Source: Actinomycetota bacterium (GTDB lineage Bacteria; Actinomycetota; Actinomycetes; Mycobacteriales; Mycobacteriaceae). From it: a DNA stretch of 64,000 nt. The stretch lies in NCBI GenBank assembly GCA_018268465.1, contig JAFDWN010000036.1, positions 60,735 through 124,734 on the forward strand, written 5' to 3'. The notes beneath the pieces were generated by a model, which ran no database searches, was not told the DNA's origin, and saw only the letters and a program-made list of their open reading frames with translations. A program made the translations under genes and the position numbers. Positions 13,964 to 22,351 of the stretch are shown piece by piece (within the stretch, counting starts at the first letter, position 1; every line of letters starts with the position of its first letter).

Positions 13964-14743
13964 GTGACGGCGTCGATTGCTGAATTCCTGCAATCCAGCG
14001 AACGAATCGAAGCCGACGAACTCAAGACGTTCCACGGATTCACCGGACTGCACGGCGGCTTGGCCGTGGCTGCGCTCATCCGCCGGATGCGACAGCTGGT
14101 GCCGCCCGAGCGCCGTCTCGTCAGCGTCACCGCCCACTTCATCCGCCCGCTGGCCGGCCCCATCACGGTTGCCGCCGACGTGGTCAGGAACGGCAGCCGC
14201 GTGACGGTCGCCTCCGCGACCGCATCCACCCAGTCCGGGACCGGTGTCACCGCCACCGCCATCTTCGGTGTCACAGCCAAGCGCGACGTCACGGTGTTCG
14301 GGCCCGCGATGCCGACCGGCATCGCGGGCATCTCCGAGGCCGAGATCGTGCGGATCCCGGCCGAGTTCATCCCCATCGCAGCCCGCATGGAGATCCGCGC
14401 GGCCACACCCGCACTGCCCTACAGCGGGTCGGCCGAGGCGATCCTGTGCGGTTGGGTTCGGCTCAAGGACGACGTGCCCGATGCCGACGAGCGGATCACG
14501 ATCCTCGCCGACGCCCTGGCACCGTCCTACACGGCGCTGCTCACCGACCTCTACGCGGTACCGACGGTCGAGATGTCGGTTCAGCTGTCCGGACGCGGCG
14601 CCGACACGCGCTTCGAGTGGGCCCTGGTGCGGGCGGCCACGACATCGGCCGACGCCCACGGGTATGTGCGGGAAACGATCGACGTGTGGGCGGAAGGAGG
14701 CGACCACCTGGCGAGCTGTTCGCAGCTCCGATTCGTGCGGTAG
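13964..14743 (+). CDS. TesB-like acyl thioesterase (double hotdog)
   Basis: A 259-residue protein resembling the TesB / acyl-CoA thioesterase family with two hotdog folds. The N-terminal half has TFHGFTGLHGGLAVAALIRRM and VSVTAHFIRPLAGP; the C-terminal half has MSVQLSGRG and ASCSQLRFVR. The start GTG 13964 is preceded by AGGGG. It is the first gene of the cluster and lies 15 bp before the FAAL gene. It may release or edit acyl-ACP or acyl-CoA intermediates. The catalytic Asp/Gln/Thr set was not pinned down by eye, so a non-catalytic or dehydratase-like role is not excluded. Confidence 0.75.
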   Translation: MTASIAEFLQSSERIEADELKTFHGFTGLHGGLAVAALIRRMRQLVPPERRLVSVTAHFIRPLAGPITVAADVVRNGSRVTVASATASTQSGTGVTATAIFGVTAKRDVTVFGPAMPTGIAGISEAEIVRIPAEFIPIAARMEIRAATPALPYSGSAEAILCGWVRLKDDVPDADERITILADALAPSYTALLTDLYAVPTVEMSVQLSGRGADTRFEWALVRAATTSADAHGYVRETIDVWAEGGDHLASCSQLRFVR

Positions 14744-14758
14744 CGGGAAGGGGCCGAC

Positions 14759-16426
14759 GTGCCTGGTCTCGAGAACATCGTTGACGTCCTGTGCGCCAGA
14801 TCCACCTCCACGGACCTGGCGTACGTGTTCCTCGCTGACGGCACCGCGGCCAGTGAGACCCGGTGGACGTTCGCCGACACCGCCGCCCACACCGACGCGC
14901 TCGCGGCGCAGCTGCACGATCGGGGGGTGCGGGCCGGCGACCGGGTGCTCCTGGCCGTCAACCCCGGGCTGCGCTACATCGCCGCACTGTTCGGCGCGAT
15001 GCGACTCGGCGCCGTCCCCGTGCCGTGTTACCCGCCGCTGCGCACCAAGGACATCCACCGATTCTCGGCCATCACCGACGACTGCACACCCTCGATGATC
15101 GTCACCGACCCGATGTACGCCGACCGGGTGGCGGGACTGGCGTGTGGTGGCGTGCTCCGCACCGACGAGACGCCGGCCACGGCCCCGACGTCGCCGCCGC
15201 GGGTGTCGATCTCGCCGACCGATCGGGCGCTGATCCAGTACACGTCGGGCTCGACCGGGACACCCAAAGGGGTCTGTCTGACCCACAGCAACCTGGTGAG
15301 CAATTGTGCGGCGCTCGGGCGGAGTATGGGTGAACAGCCCGGGCGCATCGGCCTGTCGTGGTTGCCGCCCTACCACGACATGGGGCTACTCGGCACGATC
15401 GTGCTGTCGCTGTATCACGGATGGCCGCTCGTCCTGATGTCACCGCTGCATTTCGTGCAGCGGCCGCGCCGCTGGCTGGAGGCGATCACCGACTACCGCG
15501 TGTCCGTCACGGTCGGCCCCAACTTTTCGCTGGATCTGTGCGCCGCGGCGCTTCGCGACGACACCTCGGACGGTGCGGGCGAACTCGACCTCTCCACGGT
15601 GCGGCACCTGTATTGCGGCGCGGAGCCGATCAGCGCCGACACGCTGGAACGCTTCGGCGCGGCGACCGCGCCGCTGGGGTTCGACATGGCCGCCCTGATC
15701 CCCTGCTACGGGATGGCAGAAGCGACGCTTTTCGTCGCGGGCAGGCGCGCGGGCACCGGCTACCGCGCCGCGTCGCACGGCACCAACGCCGCCGTCGTCA
15801 GCTGCGGCACCGTCGACAGCGCACACACGGTACGCATCGTCGATCCCGCCACCCGAACACCCGCTGCGGACGGGCAGGTCGGCGAGATCTGGGTGTCGGG
15901 CCCCAGTGTCGCCGCCGGCTACCACGACAATCCGGAGCTGACCGACGAAGTCTTCCACGCCCGCCTCGCCGGGCAATCGGGGCAGTACCTCCGCACGGGG
16001 GACCTCGGATTCATCCGCGACGGCGAACTGTTCGTCACCGGCAGGATCAAGGATCTGATCATCGTCAGCGGCAGGAACATCTACCCGCAGGACGTGGAGG
16101 CAGCCGCGCTGCGGGCGGATCCGTCGCTGCGGACCGCCGCCGCGTTCGCCATTCCCGGCGCCGGCACCGAAGCCCTCTGCGTGCTGGCCGAGTCCACCCA
16201 TGCGGCGATGTCCGCCGAACGCCACTCGGCGGCACAGCAGGCCGTGCGCACCGCGATCACCGCGGAATTCGGTGTCGCACCGCATATCCGGATCTGCCCG
16301 AGACGAACCATCCCCACCACGACCAGCGGCAAAGTCCGCAGGCAGGAGGCCAGGACGATGTATCTGGCGAATCGGTTGCCGCCCGTGACTCCCGACGCAC
16401 CCGCAGCACGAGGGCGGCCGGCATGA
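14759..16426 (+). CDS. Fatty acyl-AMP ligase (FAAL), first copy
   Basis: A 555-residue ANL-superfamily enzyme of the FAAL branch, which adenylates a fatty acid and passes it to an ACP rather than to CoA. The P-loop-like motif YTSGSTGTPKG is at about residue 161, SWLPPYHDMGLLG is typical of FAALs, and CYGMAEATLFV, LRTGDLGF and GRIKDLIIVSGRNIYPQDVE (about 428) follow. The catalytic Lys is in TTTSGKVRRQ near 524. GTG 14759 has GGAAGGGG upstream. The stop overlaps the next start (ATGA at 16423-16426). It is the best candidate to load the ACP at 18380. Confidence 0.92.
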   Translation: MPGLENIVDVLCARSTSTDLAYVFLADGTAASETRWTFADTAAHTDALAAQLHDRGVRAGDRVLLAVNPGLRYIAALFGAMRLGAVPVPCYPPLRTKDIHRFSAITDDCTPSMIVTDPMYADRVAGLACGGVLRTDETPATAPTSPPRVSISPTDRALIQYTSGSTGTPKGVCLTHSNLVSNCAALGRSMGEQPGRIGLSWLPPYHDMGLLGTIVLSLYHGWPLVLMSPLHFVQRPRRWLEAITDYRVSVTVGPNFSLDLCAAALRDDTSDGAGELDLSTVRHLYCGAEPISADTLERFGAATAPLGFDMAALIPCYGMAEATLFVAGRRAGTGYRAASHGTNAAVVSCGTVDSAHTVRIVDPATRTPAADGQVGEIWVSGPSVAAGYHDNPELTDEVFHARLAGQSGQYLRTGDLGFIRDGELFVTGRIKDLIIVSGRNIYPQDVEAAALRADPSLRTAAAFAIPGAGTEALCVLAESTHAAMSAERHSAAQQAVRTAITAEFGVAPHIRICPRRTIPTTTSGKVRRQEARTMYLANRLPPVTPDAPAARGRPA

Positions 16427-17364
16427 GCACGAATTCCCCTGTCTCCCAGCGGCCCGGCGCTCCGCTCCCACCTGCGCGCGACGTCCTGGCCTCTCGTCTG
16501 GCCTACCTGACCGTCGGCCTGCCGACACTCGGCACCGCGGGCGCCGTCGCCTACGCGCTCTACGACGGCGTCACCGCCTGCGACATCGCACTGTTCGCCG
16601 CGATGTACCTTGTCACCGCGCTGGGCGTGGAGGCGGGTCTGCACCGGTACTTCACCCACCGATCGTTCGACGCATCCGAACCCATGAAGGTTTTCCTGGC
16701 CGTCACCGGCTCGATGGCGGCCCAGGGGCCGGTGGTGTTCTGGGTCGCCAATCACCGGCTGCACCATGCTTTCGCCGACACCGACCGCGACCCCCATTCA
16801 CCTCAACCCCGGGGACCGGGCGTGCGGGGCCGGCTGAAGGGTTTGTGGCACGGCCACGTCGGCTGGCTCTTCGACGTGAAGAAGATCGACTGGAGCCGCC
16901 ACACCCGCGACTGGCTGGCCGACCGGCGGGTGATGAAGATCAACGCCCACTACTTCACGCTGGTGCTGGCGGGCATCCTCCTTCCCGGTGTGATCGGCCT
17001 GGCGGCAACACAATCCGTGCACGGTCTGATCGGCGGAATCCTCTGGGGCGGGTTCGCCAGGATCTTCGCCCTCGACCACGCGACGTGGGCGGTGAACTCG
17101 CTGGGACACACAATCGGCAACCGGGAGTTCCCGGTGCGCGACGAGAGCCGCAACATCGGCGCACTGGCACCGCCCACCCTGGGCGGATCGTGGCACAACA
17201 ACCACCACGCCAGACCGGCACTGGCCCAGACCCGAAGGCACTGGTGGCAACTCGACCTCGCCGGCGAGTTCATCCGACTGGTCGACCACCTCGGCCTGGT
17301 CCGTAACGTGCACTACGCCGAGACACCGGACCGCGCCCCCGGACCGGAGAGGACCGCATCATGA
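16423..17364 (+). CDS. Membrane fatty acyl desaturase, SCD-like (first)
   Basis: A 313-residue di-iron membrane desaturase of the acyl-CoA/acyl-ACP delta-9 (SCD-like) family. The histidine boxes are HRYFTH (about 74), HRLHH (about 112) and HNNHH (about 258), with the extra ligand motif NSLGH. Four hydrophobic segments (for example IALFAAMYLVTALGVEAG and LVLAGILLPGVIGLA) hold the fold. It overlaps the FAAL stop and the next desaturase start by 4 bp each, so expression is tightly coupled. In this setting it probably acts on an ACP-bound chain, introducing or converting a double bond. Confidence 0.92.
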   Translation: MSTNSPVSQRPGAPLPPARDVLASRLAYLTVGLPTLGTAGAVAYALYDGVTACDIALFAAMYLVTALGVEAGLHRYFTHRSFDASEPMKVFLAVTGSMAAQGPVVFWVANHRLHHAFADTDRDPHSPQPRGPGVRGRLKGLWHGHVGWLFDVKKIDWSRHTRDWLADRRVMKINAHYFTLVLAGILLPGVIGLAATQSVHGLIGGILWGGFARIFALDHATWAVNSLGHTIGNREFPVRDESRNIGALAPPTLGGSWHNNHHARPALAQTRRHWWQLDLAGEFIRLVDHLGLVRNVHYAETPDRAPGPERTAS

Positions 17365-18377
17365 ACGTCGAAACCGGCCGCCGGCAACAAATTCCGCAGC
17401 TGCGCGAAGAATCGCTTGCGCGGGTGATCGTGCAGCTGAGCCCCAAGAGCGCGCGCGCCAAACGCATCGTCGCCCTCGTCACGATCGGCGTGCCCGCGAT
17501 CGGGTTCGTCATCGCGCTCTATCTGGTGTTCACCGGGAGGGCGACCGCGCTGGACTACGCCATGTTCGTGGTGTTCTACGTGATCCAGATGTTCGGCACG
17601 ACCATCGGTTTCCACCGCTACGCGGCGCACAAATCGTTCAAGACCTCCCGGTTCTTCGAAGGGGTGCTGATGATCACCGGATCGATGGCGCTGGAGGGAC
17701 CACTGACCTTCTGGGTGAGCACCCACCGCCGCCACCACCGCTTCGCCGACGAACCGGGCGACCCGCACTCCCCCAACCTGAGCGGCGCCGGGCTGGCCGG
17801 ACACCTCAAAGGCCTGTGGTACGCCCACATTCCATGGATGTTCAGCGACCAGGAGTCACGGGCCAATGTCTTCGCCCGCGACGTCCTCCGCGACCGCTGC
17901 CTCTACAACTACAGCCGAACCTATCCCCTCTGGGCGCTGCTGAGCCTGCTGCTGCCCGCGCTGGCGGGTTTCCTGATCGGCGGCACCGCGGCCGCCGCAT
18001 TCTCCGCCTTCGTCTTCGGCGGCCTCGCACGGGTGTTCGTCGCGAACCAGGCGGCTTGGTGCGTGGGATCGGTCAGCCACATGTTCGGCTCCCGCCCGTT
18101 CGCCACCAGGGACAACAGTGCCAACAACTGGCCCGTGGCCATCCTCACGTTCGGCGAGGGCCTACAGAACAACCACCACGCCTTCCCCGGTGCGTATCGG
18201 CATGGAATGCGTTGGTGGGAACCCGATGTCAGCGGCTGGGTCCTGAGCCTGCTGGCGCGCGCCGGGATCGTCTGGGATCTGCGCATGCCCGATCGGGACA
18301 CCATCGCCGGACGGATGCGGCGCAATTCGCCGCCCGCCGCAACGACCCCGCATCCCCACCCCGCCGACGGAGGCTGA
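17361..18377 (+). CDS. Membrane fatty acyl desaturase, SCD-like (second)
   Basis: A 338-residue paralogue of the preceding desaturase. Histidine boxes are HRYAAH (about 85), HRRHH (about 121) and QNNHH (about 269), with SVSHMFG as the fourth ligand region. The last box begins with Gln rather than His, which is also seen in some SCD-type enzymes. It has a basic N-terminal extension (about 35 residues) and a Pro/His-rich C-terminal tail. Its ATG overlaps the previous stop (17361-17364), and the ACP gene begins 2 bp after its stop. Paired SCD-like desaturases are expected where several successive unsaturations are built into one chain. Confidence 0.92.
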   Translation: MNVETGRRQQIPQLREESLARVIVQLSPKSARAKRIVALVTIGVPAIGFVIALYLVFTGRATALDYAMFVVFYVIQMFGTTIGFHRYAAHKSFKTSRFFEGVLMITGSMALEGPLTFWVSTHRRHHRFADEPGDPHSPNLSGAGLAGHLKGLWYAHIPWMFSDQESRANVFARDVLRDRCLYNYSRTYPLWALLSLLLPALAGFLIGGTAAAAFSAFVFGGLARVFVANQAAWCVGSVSHMFGSRPFATRDNSANNWPVAILTFGEGLQNNHHAFPGAYRHGMRWWEPDVSGWVLSLLARAGIVWDLRMPDRDTIAGRMRRNSPPAATTPHPHPADGG

Positions 18378-18379
18378 CC

Positions 18380-18667
18380 ATGTTCGGACGTACGAAGACA
18401 CCAGCCATCCAAGGGCCGCTCACCAACGACTCGCTGCGCGCCTGGCTGGTCACCGAACTGGCCAGGCGGGTCAAATGCGCCGAGACAGACGTGGATACCG
18501 CCAAACCGTTCGATGCGTACGGCCTGGATTCCCGCACCGCGGTGCAGGTCTCGGGCGCCTTGGAGAAGGTCGTGGAACGACGGCTGTCCCCGGCGATCCT
18601 GTTCGAGCACGAGACCATCGACGATCTGGCCGACTACCTCACCCGCGAACTGCGGCTGAGCAACTGA
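18380..18667 (+). CDS. Acyl carrier protein
   Basis: A 95-residue stand-alone carrier protein. The phosphopantetheine site is Ser in AYGLDSRTAVQVSG; the usual DSL triad is DSR here. Downstream LSPAILFEHETIDDLADYL matches the helix III-IV region of PKS-type ACPs rather than the housekeeping AcpM. ATG 18380 lies in an AGGCTGACC context with GGAGG 5' of it. Set between the second and third desaturase genes, it is likely the tether on which the chain is desaturated, charged by a FAAL of the same operon. Confidence 0.9.
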   Translation: MFGRTKTPAIQGPLTNDSLRAWLVTELARRVKCAETDVDTAKPFDAYGLDSRTAVQVSGALEKVVERRLSPAILFEHETIDDLADYLTRELRLSN

Positions 18668-18674
18668 CCCTGCC

Positions 18675-19751
18675 ATGACCGTGTCCACGACCCCGATCGA
18701 GCCCGACCCGCGATATCTTGATTTCCTCGAGAAGAGCAACGCGATCGCGGGTGAGAAACTCGCGGCCGCGATCCCCAGGGAGTACATGCAACCCTCCGTC
18801 GCGCACGGACTCGCCGGGTTCGGGGTGAGTGCCGCACTGTACGGCGGATCCGTGGCCGCGATAGCCGTCCTGGACCGCTGGTATCTCAGCGTGCCGTTCA
18901 TCGTCGCCGCGGGCCTGGGCGGCTGGGGCCTGCACTGCATCGGCCACGACTGCGGGCACGGCTCCTTCTCGCGCAGCCGGCGTCTCAACGTCGCCGTCGG
19001 GCACCTGTCCCTGCTGCCGCTGCTGTACCCGTTCCACGCATGGCGGCACGTGCACAACTGGCACCACGCACACACCAACAGCCTCGAATTGGACACCGAC
19101 TGGCGGCCGATCCCCGAAGCGGTGTACCGCCGTATGCCACTTCGGCACCGGGTGCTCTACGTGAGCATGCGAACCTGGGCGGTGTGGGCCGGATCGGTGA
19201 ACTACTGGGCCCAGTCGGCCTTCCGGCCGTCCTTCTTCCCGAAGCGCGAGACGCGGCGCGAAGTGCGCCGCTCCATCTGGTTCGTCACCGTGGCGGGCGG
19301 CGCCTATCTCACAACGCTGACCTACCTCACCGGCTGGCAGGGACTGTTGCTGTGTTTCGCGGCGCCATGGCTGGCCATCCACGCCTGGTTCAGCATCACC
19401 ACCCTGATGCACCACAGTTCCGAGGACATTCCGTATCTGCCGCAACAACACTGGACCCGCAATGCCAGCAGGCTGTTGGTGACCACCGACTACGAATATC
19501 CCCGGTGGCTGCTGTACCTCACGCACAACATCTCGCTACACACCGCTCACCACGTGGCACCCAGCATCCCGTACTACAACCTGCGCAAAGCTCAGGCGGT
19601 GCTGCGCGAGCAGTACCCGGATATGGTGCGGATCGAGCGGGCCGATGTGCGGAAACTCTGGTCCATTCTGCGTAAATGCCGGTTCTACGACCCGATTTCG
19701 GGTTTGTACTCCACCCGCCCGATGCGCCGCGCCGGAGGCGGCGCGACATGA
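18675..19751 (+). CDS. Membrane fatty acid desaturase, FADS/DesA-like (third)
   Basis: A 358-residue di-iron desaturase of a different branch from the two upstream. It has HDCGH (about 91), HNWHHAHT (about 126) and HTAHH (about 290), the pattern of delta-12 desaturases and plant or bacterial acetylenases. Two pairs of hydrophobic helices flank these boxes. It starts 7 bp after the ACP gene and ends with an ATGA overlap to the hydrolase. In known alkyne pathways this branch supplies the terminal or delta-12 acetylenase; that role is inferred from context here. Confidence 0.92.
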   Translation: MTVSTTPIEPDPRYLDFLEKSNAIAGEKLAAAIPREYMQPSVAHGLAGFGVSAALYGGSVAAIAVLDRWYLSVPFIVAAGLGGWGLHCIGHDCGHGSFSRSRRLNVAVGHLSLLPLLYPFHAWRHVHNWHHAHTNSLELDTDWRPIPEAVYRRMPLRHRVLYVSMRTWAVWAGSVNYWAQSAFRPSFFPKRETRREVRRSIWFVTVAGGAYLTTLTYLTGWQGLLLCFAAPWLAIHAWFSITTLMHHSSEDIPYLPQQHWTRNASRLLVTTDYEYPRWLLYLTHNISLHTAHHVAPSIPYYNLRKAQAVLREQYPDMVRIERADVRKLWSILRKCRFYDPISGLYSTRPMRRAGGGAT

Positions 19752-20584
19752 CCGGAACCTCGTGCGCGGCGGCCGTCCTCGCGCGGGCGCACCGGCTGCT
19801 GCCCGGAACCTGCCGGTCGGTGCACACCGCGATGTTCGTCGACACACGCGCACTGGGAACCGTCCCCGACGACATGTGCCCCCTCGGCGCGCGACCCGTC
19901 GCGCTGACCGGGGTGCCGCGGGTAGCCACGGCATACGTGTGGGGATCGCACGACGCGACGGTGCTGGCCCTGCACGGCTGGGGCACCGACAGCACCGCAA
20001 TGTCCCCCGTGGTGAGGGCGGCCACGGCGCACGGCGAGTCGGCGGTGTGCTTCGACGCCCCCGGCCACGGCATCTCACCGGGCCGCCAAGCCACCATCAC
20101 CGAGTACGCCCGCGCGACCACCGAAGTCCTCCAACGCTTTCCGGGGATCCACACGATCGTCGCGCATTCCCTCGCAGCACTGGCAGCCATCTCCGCGGTC
20201 ACCGAATACGGACATGGGCGGGTTCGCAACGTCGTTCTCCTGGCCCCGGCGTGTTCGCTGTCGGTCGTGCTCGAGCGATGGTCCCGCCAACGGCGCCTGC
20301 GACGCCCGGTGATCGACGGCATCTATCGTGAGCTGGCGGACCGCGACGGTATTCCCGTGTCGCACTGGGATATCCGCACGTTAGGTGTGCCGGCTTCGGT
20401 GCGGCTACTGCTGCTGCACGACCCCACCGACGACGTGGTGCCGATCGACGACTCGTACGCGATCGCCGCCGCGACGGACACCGACGTCGCCCGGACACGC
20501 CCGGGCACCGGACATCACGGCATCGTCGGCAGCGACGAGATGCGCGCCGTCCTGGCCGCCTGCCTGACCGCGTCGTCGCAGTAA
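19748..20584 (+). CDS. Alpha/beta hydrolase (likely thioesterase of the cluster)
   Basis: A 278-residue alpha/beta hydrolase. The oxyanion region is LALHGWGTDS, the nucleophile elbow is AHSLAAL (Ser at about 140, with Ala in place of the usual Gly before it), the acid is in LLHDPTDDVVP and the His is in GTGHHGIVG. The start overlaps the third desaturase (19748-19751). Position after FAAL-des-des-ACP-des suggests it releases the finished acyl chain from the ACP. A lipase or haloperoxidase-like function is the alternative. Confidence 0.85.
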   Translation: MTGTSCAAAVLARAHRLLPGTCRSVHTAMFVDTRALGTVPDDMCPLGARPVALTGVPRVATAYVWGSHDATVLALHGWGTDSTAMSPVVRAATAHGESAVCFDAPGHGISPGRQATITEYARATTEVLQRFPGIHTIVAHSLAALAAISAVTEYGHGRVRNVVLLAPACSLSVVLERWSRQRRLRRPVIDGIYRELADRDGIPVSHWDIRTLGVPASVRLLLLHDPTDDVVPIDDSYAIAAATDTDVARTRPGTGHHGIVGSDEMRAVLAACLTASSQ

Positions 20585-20605
20585 CCGCACAGGAAGGTGA
20601 CCCGC

Positions 20606-22351
20606 ATGCAGGTGCTCGAATCGTCGGTGCCCGCCGCGTTGGAGGCACACGCCGCCCAGCAGCCCACCACGACGGCCGTCACATACGTCGACTACGAAGC
20701 GGATTGGAGCGGCTTCACCGAAAGCCTGACCTGGTCACAACTACACCAGCGGGCGGGCACCGTCGCCCACGAACTCAGCCTGTGCGCCGCCCCCGGCGAT
20801 CGAGCGTTGATCCTCGCCCCCCAGGGGCTGGACTACGTCGTCGCATTCCTGGGAGCACTGCGCGCTGGCTTGCTCGCCGTTCCGATGTGGGTGCCGCAGG
20901 CCGGTGGCGGCGACGTCGGCGTCACCTCGGTGCTGCGCGACACATCGCCGTCGGTCATCTTCACCACCTCGGCGGCGGCGGGTGCGGTCGCCGACTGCCT
21001 ACCCGCCCGCCACGGCGGTCCGGCGGTCATCGAGGCCGACATGCTCGACCCCGATGCGCCAGGAGGTGCTGTCGGCGGCCCCGACCGCTGGACCGGCGCC
21101 GCGTACCTGCAGTACACCTCCGGCTCGACGCGGCAGCCGGCCGGAGTCGTGGTGTCACACAAGAATCTGGTGTCGAACTTCACCCATGTGCTCAACGACT
21201 ACTTCGCGGCGTTCGGCAAGTCCGTCCCCCGCGACACCACCGTGGTGTCATGGGTTCCGCTGTACCACAACATGGGATTGTTCCTGGGTATCTGCGCGCC
21301 GATCCTGTCCGGCATATCGACCGTGCTGACCAGTCCGGTGGCGTTCCTGCAACGACCCGCGCGGTGGATGCAATTGCTGGCCACTCACTCCCGGTCCTTC
21401 TCCCCAGCGCCGAATTTCGCACTCGAGCTCGCCCGCCGGATGACCACGGACGACGATATGGCCGGCCTCGACCTGGGCGGCATACTCGGGATCGTCTGCG
21501 GCGGCGAGAGGATCCACGCCACCACCGTCGAGGCCTTCACCGACCGGTTCGCCCGTTTCAACCTGCCGCCTTCGACGGTCCTGCCGTCGTACGGACTGGC
21601 CGAAGCCACCGTCTACGTGGCGACCCGCCGACCCGGCGCGGCGCCGCGGATCGTGCGGTTCGACCCCGACGAACTGGCGGCAGGCCACGCGCGCACCCGC
21701 ACCGACGGTGCCGGTATCGCGTCGATCAGCTACGGCGTCCCGCGCGCGCCGCTGGTCCGGATCGTCGACCCCGATACCGCCGCCGAGTGCGCGGCCGGGA
21801 CGATCGGCGAGATCTGGGTGCACGGGGACAACGTCACCGCCGGTTACTGGCACCACCGCGAGCACGCCGGGGACACGTTCGCCGCGCATCTAGAACACCC
21901 CTCCGAAGGCACACCCGGCGAACCGTGGCTGCGCACCGGCGATCTCGGTGTGATCGTCGACGATGAGCTGTTCGTCATGGGCCGCATCAAAGACCTGGTG
22001 ATCGTCGACGGACGCAACCACTACCCCGACGACATCGAGGCGACGATCAGGGTGATCACCGGCGGCCGGGTCGCCGCGATCTCGGTGCCGGCGCAGGACT
22101 CCGAACAACTCGTCACCGTCGTCGAATTCCAGCCACCCGACGGCGACGAAGCAGCGGCGACACTGCGCGCGGTCGCCCGCGAGATCATGGCCGCGGTCGC
22201 GAAATCACACGGGTTGCATATCGCGGATCTCGTTCTGGTGGCGCCGTTCTCGATCCCGACGACGGCGAGCGGCAAGATCCGGCGGTCGGCCTGCGCCGAG
22301 CAGTACCGCGCGGGCGGATTCGCCCGCCTCGACGGCGACCAGCAGTCCTGA
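20606..22351 (+). CDS. Fatty acyl-AMP ligase (FAAL), second copy
   Basis: A 581-residue FAAL-type ligase. Motifs are YTSGSTRQPAGVVVSHKNL (about 170), SWVPLYHNMGLFLG, SYGLAEATVYVATRRPG, LRTGDLGVI and GRIKDLVIVDGRNHYPDD (about 459), with the catalytic Lys in TTASGKIRRS near 556. ATG 20606 is chosen because AAGGTGA lies six bases upstream. In the ATP-binding loop the usual PKG is PAG, so the Lys is lost, which may affect catalysis. The gene follows the hydrolase by 21 bp and ends the cluster. It may load a second substrate, or activate the product for transfer elsewhere. Confidence 0.9.
   Translation: MQVLESSVPAALEAHAAQQPTTTAVTYVDYEADWSGFTESLTWSQLHQRAGTVAHELSLCAAPGDRALILAPQGLDYVVAFLGALRAGLLAVPMWVPQAGGGDVGVTSVLRDTSPSVIFTTSAAAGAVADCLPARHGGPAVIEADMLDPDAPGGAVGGPDRWTGAAYLQYTSGSTRQPAGVVVSHKNLVSNFTHVLNDYFAAFGKSVPRDTTVVSWVPLYHNMGLFLGICAPILSGISTVLTSPVAFLQRPARWMQLLATHSRSFSPAPNFALELARRMTTDDDMAGLDLGGILGIVCGGERIHATTVEAFTDRFARFNLPPSTVLPSYGLAEATVYVATRRPGAAPRIVRFDPDELAAGHARTRTDGAGIASISYGVPRAPLVRIVDPDTAAECAAGTIGEIWVHGDNVTAGYWHHREHAGDTFAAHLEHPSEGTPGEPWLRTGDLGVIVDDELFVMGRIKDLVIVDGRNHYPDDIEATIRVITGGRVAAISVPAQDSEQLVTVVEFQPPDGDEAAATLRAVAREIMAAVAKSHGLHIADLVLVAPFSIPTTASGKIRRSACAEQYRAGGFARLDGDQQS

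Follow-up and report, generated by a model that had tools for sequence, protein, structure and literature searches.

A rubredoxin-less polyyne-type gene cluster with a second fatty acyl-AMP ligase in a small number of mycobacteria

Polyynes are reactive, antibiotic-like fatty acids with runs of triple bonds, and no report of a mycobacterial polyyne was found in the open-licence literature searched. An eight-gene group lying within a 64-kb stretch of DNA (64,000 nucleotides, hereafter the window) raises the question of whether a mycobacterium may make such a compound. The group is best read as a rubredoxin-less actinobacterial polyyne cluster, present in few mycobacteria, the core of which would make a conjugated polyynoic acid on an acyl carrier protein; we assign this reading a probability of about 0.85. 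Production of a polyyne by the strain is what we infer from the encoded enzymes.

The eight genes occupy positions 13964-22351 of the + strand. They encode, in order, TE, a hotdog-type acyl thioesterase of 259 aa (13964..14743; Pfam 4HBT_3 and 4HBT_3C); FAAL1, a fatty acyl-AMP ligase of 555 aa assigned to the polyyne branch (14759..16426; Pfam AMP-binding and tree); DES1, an SCD-like membrane desaturase with all three histidine boxes (16423..17364; Pfam, tree and motifs); DES2, an SCD-like desaturase with an altered metal site (17361..18377; starred DES2 branch and SCD1 alignment); ACP, a stand-alone acyl carrier protein (18380..18667; PP-binding and sequence); DES3, a FADS-like desaturase and the most specific marker of the cluster (18675..19751; Pfam, tree and specificity); HYD, an alpha/beta hydrolase and putative polyyne thioesterase with Ser141 (19748..20584; Pfam and HSL motif); and FAAL2, a second, FadD21/23/28-like fatty acyl-AMP ligase that is a mycobacterial addition (20597..22351; Pfam AMP-binding and NCBIfam PRK05850). 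All three desaturases match Pfam FA_desaturase. The earlier note had described the same eight-gene set and extent, and both stand, as all frames are open on the + strand and the Pfam classes agree. Its wording that the genes mostly overlap by 4 bp is slightly generous. Such overlaps are certain at three of the seven junctions (FAAL1/DES1, DES1/DES2 and DES3/HYD), while the DES2/ACP junction overlaps by 4 bp only if ACP starts at TTG 18374; the ATG at 18380, which agrees with the starts of orthologues, leaves a gap of 2 bp. The remaining intergenic gaps measure 15, 7 and 12 bp.

The left flank of the cluster holds a class-III aminotransferase, which we take to be hemL, a histidine-phosphatase-family gene, a redoxin and a DsbD_TM gene. 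The right flank, all on the opposite strand, holds a weak PNPOx match, EutC and EutB and, further on, ALAD and HemD. The cluster has a G+C content of 68.4%, against 69.6% for the remainder of the window, and no tRNA was found within the 64 kb. Frames longer than 500 aa in the window and in 20 kb on either side yielded no ketosynthase start or active-site pattern, in keeping with the earlier claim that no ketosynthase is present. The attribution to a mycobacterium is likewise supported, the host genome belonging to the same genus as that of M. hubeiense (G013).

A seven-gene polyyne cassette was defined by Mullins et al. 2021 (PMC8406139), and the order FAAL-2xFAD-ACP-FAD-H/TE-Rd was given by Lin et al. 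2022 (PMC9098870). Named genomes were scanned by DES3 alignment, which returned 53 loci with DES3 52-76% identical, two of them in mycobacterial records and others in, for example, Pseudomonas protegens, Collimonas, Burkholderia, Streptomyces and Actinomadura; the scan used two peptide patterns, so that clusters without them are missed and the window's own record may be absent. Gene order was compared across 57 loci: that of the window, those of four further mycobacteria, one from another genome of the same taxonomic order and 51 named loci. L053 and L054 come from genomes already represented by L043 and L044, and L008 from the species of L064, and these three were left aside. The rows are not independent, as a single genome supplies both L072 and L074, which are nearly identical. 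The order FAAL-DES-DES-ACP-DES-HYD recurs in 44 of the 57 loci, including Pseudomonas protegens and Collimonas, and the identification of this inner run as the polyyne core is thus upheld. Six loci carry the five-gene core followed by a P450 in place of HYD, a P450-type polyyne cluster having been described by Mullins et al. (PMC8406139). Seven are incomplete or cut by a contig end; one of these seven, L098 (Nocardia colli), is uncut yet shows no DES1. TE lies directly 5' of FAAL1 in 20/57 loci. DES3 and HYD form a single frame in six Pseudomonas loci and in Billgrantia (7 of the 15 loci tested), which fits the published didomain PgnH. The S. griseofuscus chromosome carries its two cluster copies (L072 and L074) near both record ends, probably in terminal repeats.

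Two described clusters are among the closest to that of the window. The cluster on a Streptomyces goshikiensis plasmid (L008) and its Streptomyces kin share the order TE-FAAL-DES-DES-ACP-DES-HYD, but have a rubredoxin, a P450 and an MFS transporter after this run and no FAAL2; DES3 and DES2 there are 62% and 55% identical to those of the window. On the same plasmid (L008, 1-10070) the core adjoins DAHP synthase, pabB, two AMP-binding, FAD and aminotransferase genes, neighbours that hint at an aromatic partner for the polyyne. The protegencin (pgn) cluster of Pseudomonas protegens shares FAAL-DES-DES-ACP-DES-HYD (DES3 52-53% and DES2 54% identical to the window), but differs in having DES3 and HYD in one frame, a rubredoxin and no FAAL2. 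As of 2021, according to Mullins et al. (PMC8406139), a gene cluster had yet to be linked to any actinobacterial polyyne. The same study kept two Mycobacteriaceae without rubredoxin in the polyyne clade as an exception, so the polyyne core in mycobacteria is not new. Their cassettes come from the same family and may be from the same species as loci compared here, and the portion of that text available to us holds no mention of a second FAAL or of varied placement. The window has a polyyne-branch FAAL, a stand-alone ACP, three orthologous desaturases and HYD after DES3, all in the typical order, and lacks a rubredoxin gene within the cluster. Since PMC8406139 retains such exceptions in the clade, the cluster is filed as a variant and not as a typical member. 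New here are its rarity, its differing neighbours, the location of rubredoxin elsewhere in the genome and the placement of FAAL2 after HYD.

The trees against other homologues that the earlier note had proposed were run in part, as quick searches with several long branches, covering neither the mycobacterial genomes G703 and G747 nor, by name, JamABC, Cay and Cnn. A starred branch separates 49 polyyne-cluster FAALs, among them FAAL1 of the window, from 13 other FAALs. FAAL1 groups with M. hubeiense and an uncultured Mycolicibacterium within a starred set of 30 actinobacterial rows, and lies nearer to the Burkholderia and Collimonas rows than to those of Pseudomonas. Cepacin and collimonin are C16-derived (PMC9098870) and protegencin is C18 (PMC8406139); taken with the position of FAAL1, the C16 origin of the former two gives a weak hint that palmitate may be its substrate. 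The FAALs of four desaturase-ACP-FAAL loci whose alkyne role is assumed (L009, L010, L012 and L013) fall outside the polyyne branch. Catalytic motifs are conserved in FAAL1, ACP and HYD. The pantetheine serine of ACP lies in YGLDS (codon 18530-18532), the DS being kept, in listed variants, in 54 of 56 rows, and the HSL motif of HYD is kept, in listed variants, in 39 of 49.

In the desaturase tree DES1 and DES2 are separate from the ordinary SCD-type desaturases included. The DES2 proteins form one starred branch, and DES1 of the window falls within a starred set of 16 actinobacterial DES1 proteins, DES1 overall not forming one branch. In the DES3 tree the three mycobacterial rows stand together (support 100, starred) and join the actinobacteria (support 90, not starred). 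An ordinary SCD- or DesA-type identity was rejected on the separate branches and the DES2 motif. A single-alkyne cassette of the jamABC type was rejected as well, such cassettes being defined with one desaturase (PMC8406139) where the window has three. All three desaturases are required in Pseudomonas and Trinickia, and in Trinickia the thioesterase also (PMC8406139). DES3 is specific to the cluster, no match above 20.6 bits being obtained in those of 20 searched genomes that lack it. Ordinary SCD-type desaturases of the order are about 40% identical to DES2, and in the match list for 397 genomes nothing exceeds 50% apart from the window's own DES2 and that of G543 (58%), a genome with a P450-type cluster. 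DES2 was matched in 4 of 198 genomes of the genus, the fourth match being a desaturase of the ordinary kind (35% identical); within the window's genome it matched nothing besides DES1 and itself.

The metal site of DES2 departs from that of SCD1 at two positions. Gln-269 (codon 18165-18167) aligns with the first histidine of the SCD1 HNYHH motif in the third histidine box, and Gly-236 (codon 18066-18068) aligns with an SCD1 asparagine four residues before another histidine. The former position is Gln in 54/54 DES2 rows and the latter is Gly or Ala in 54/54 (53 Gly, 1 Ala), whereas the DES1 counterparts are His and Asn in 51/51 rows, counted from 52 with the L082 row, identical to its DES2, left out. 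Two further mycobacterial loci carry the same DES2 residues. The box was found in 34 of 35 outgroup desaturases, one row giving no match, and these always have His at the DES2 Gln position. By counting, the two positions would correspond to SCD1 H294 and N261, provided that the neighbouring histidine is H265. We take H294 to be one of nine iron-binding histidines and N261 presumably to matter. H265 is a named iron ligand of SCD1, in which nine histidines bind two irons (PMC10359943). A literature search found no description of the Gln/Gly change, and the two altered residues are a possible sequence marker for polyyne clusters. The FAAL1, DES2 and DES3 trees, together with this 54/54 change, support the polyyne-type interpretation that the earlier note had offered, the product being deduced from the genes.

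The cluster is rare in the genus. DES3 occurs in 5 of 396 genomes, themselves a sample of a larger genus, and in 3 of 361 among the better assemblies. The five are those of the window, M. hubeiense, a metagenome bin (G041), G703 and G747. The six-gene core is present in every one of them, with DES3 in the other four 66-77% identical to that of the window, and TE was matched in two, the window and M. hubeiense. The annotated flanks differ throughout. The window's cluster lies among hem and eut genes, that of M. hubeiense among SDR and AMP-ligase genes and that of G041 among glycosyltransferase and SIS genes; G703 has complex I genes there, and G747 a methyltransferase and a short-chain fatty acid transporter. 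Rarity and differing flanks suggest that the cluster may have spread by transfer or undergone repeated loss. In G041 (L044, 4994-8584) glycosyltransferase-like, Pfam-less and SIS-domain genes immediately precede the core and share its strand. Another mycobacterium, G023, has an SCD-like desaturase near a FAAL (L045, 2955-7976); both branch with plasmid loci of Pseudonocardia and Thalassospira (L010 and L012), which read desaturase-ACP-methyltransferase-P450-hydrolase-FAAL, and this type is possibly a separate kind of alkyne or modified-lipid cluster.

No rubredoxin gene was matched in any of the five mycobacterial loci. Each of the five genomes has two rubredoxin genes elsewhere, the window's pair lying on another contig. 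Polyyne accumulation was significantly lower in a mas cluster without its rubredoxin gene masJ (PMC9098870). The genome of G543 has no rubredoxin gene, and rubredoxin may thus be dispensable in some polyyne systems. Nor was a Streptomyces-type MFS transporter or P450 matched at the window's locus. In M. hubeiense (L043, 14134-15435) FAAL2 is followed, on its own strand, by a P450 gene with a possible tailoring role; hence not every mycobacterial cluster is without a nearby P450.

FAAL2 is, from its sequence, a mycobacterial FadD23-class (FadD21/23/28-like) enzyme, different from FAAL1. It scores 862 bits against NCBIfam PRK05850 (cut-off 775) and 656 bits against FadD23, while its 778 and 766 bits with the FadD21 and FadD28 models lie under their cut-off of 1100. 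Of 148 genomes searched in the genus, 143 have a member of this class (E 1e-150). FAAL2 directly follows HYD in four of the five mycobacterial loci, G703 being the exception, and in none of the 52 non-mycobacterial loci; a candidate in L055 was rejected, being a fragment of 45 bits where the contig stops. Identity between the window's copy and the other cluster copies is 57-61%, and some non-cluster homologues are similarly close (L116 59%, L130 61%). A single clade of three cluster copies was not rejected (p-AU 0.523). In a 24-row tree, its rows chosen from those at hand, the four cluster copies fall on one side of a branch from 20 other rows with support of 76.8, not starred, and single recruitment is thus not proven. 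FadD21/23/28-class FAALs commonly, not universally, have a partner PKS, but the FAAL2 of the window adjoins none. The ketosynthase start pattern occurs in the fetched stretch of 7 of 10 FAAL2 homologues from the genus; L163 and L165 show no such pattern, and L166 has a long PKS-like frame by eye. It was found near none of the cluster copies, which suggests that FAAL2 plausibly acts for an acceptor in trans.

In the proposed pathway FAAL1 would adenylate a preformed fatty acid, presumably C16 or C18, and load it onto ACP. DES1, DES2 and DES3 would together convert the ACP-bound chain to conjugated triple bonds, probably with a terminal alkyne, and HYD would release the polyynoic acid. Electrons would probably be drawn from the rubredoxins encoded elsewhere in the genome. 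FAAL2 would serve an acceptor encoded at another site, either by re-activating the released acid or by providing a second acyl chain, a step that is the least certain of the pathway and is put forward tentatively. The missing local rubredoxin, the missing Streptomyces-type MFS transporter and P450 and the lower yield on masJ loss are counted against the pathway, as are the split placement of DES1 and the long branches of the quick trees. Two further readings of the locus are improbable. The same kinds of enzyme might give a polyunsaturated or singly alkynyl chain in place of a polyyne, for the sequence does not reveal the product and one multienzyme system is reported to yield a tetrayne, a triyne or a diynyl allene depending on the pathway (PMC8406139). 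Yet the window has all three desaturases of the polyyne set, where single-alkyne cassettes have one, and its DES2 has the residue change seen in every polyyne DES2 row. An equally slim chance attaches to a silent or decaying cluster, which would accord with the missing rubredoxin, P450 and transporter and with the rarity among the genomes sampled (5/396); against this, the eight frames are open, the checked motifs are intact, and the six-gene core persists in five genomes divergent enough for DES3 to be 66-77% identical.

Two other readings concern the fate of the acid. It may be released from the cell as a free antimicrobial, the way it is in Pseudomonas and Burkholderia, with FAAL2 a passenger or a recycler of shed acid, and we give this somewhat less than an even chance. 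The core is orthologous to clusters with free polyynoic acid products such as protegencin, no PKS lies beside FAAL2, and one mycobacterial locus of the five lacks FAAL2; but no Streptomyces-type MFS transporter was matched at the window's locus, and FAAL2 comes right after HYD in the other four loci despite their different neighbours, so that it is probably kept for a purpose. A role for the mycobacterial acid as a building block, passed by FAAL2 to a PKS or other acceptor encoded elsewhere for alkyne-tipped envelope lipids and not secreted as an antibiotic, is somewhat less likely again. In G703 a divergent P450, AMP ligase, ABC transporter, hydrolase, ACP and KS-AT-ACP set adjoins the core (L150, 13707-20000; L152, 1618-4617), and its AMP ligase has nothing above 56% identity among the matches listed from 248 genomes. 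This set could replace FAAL2 in its job; it is a single case that could be coincidence.

With an eight-gene operon in hand, the question of mycobacterial polyynes becomes directly testable. The residue changes in DES2 pose the concrete question of how the triple bonds are made, and if FAAL2 does route the product into lipids, mycobacteria would have a natural class of click-reactive lipids.
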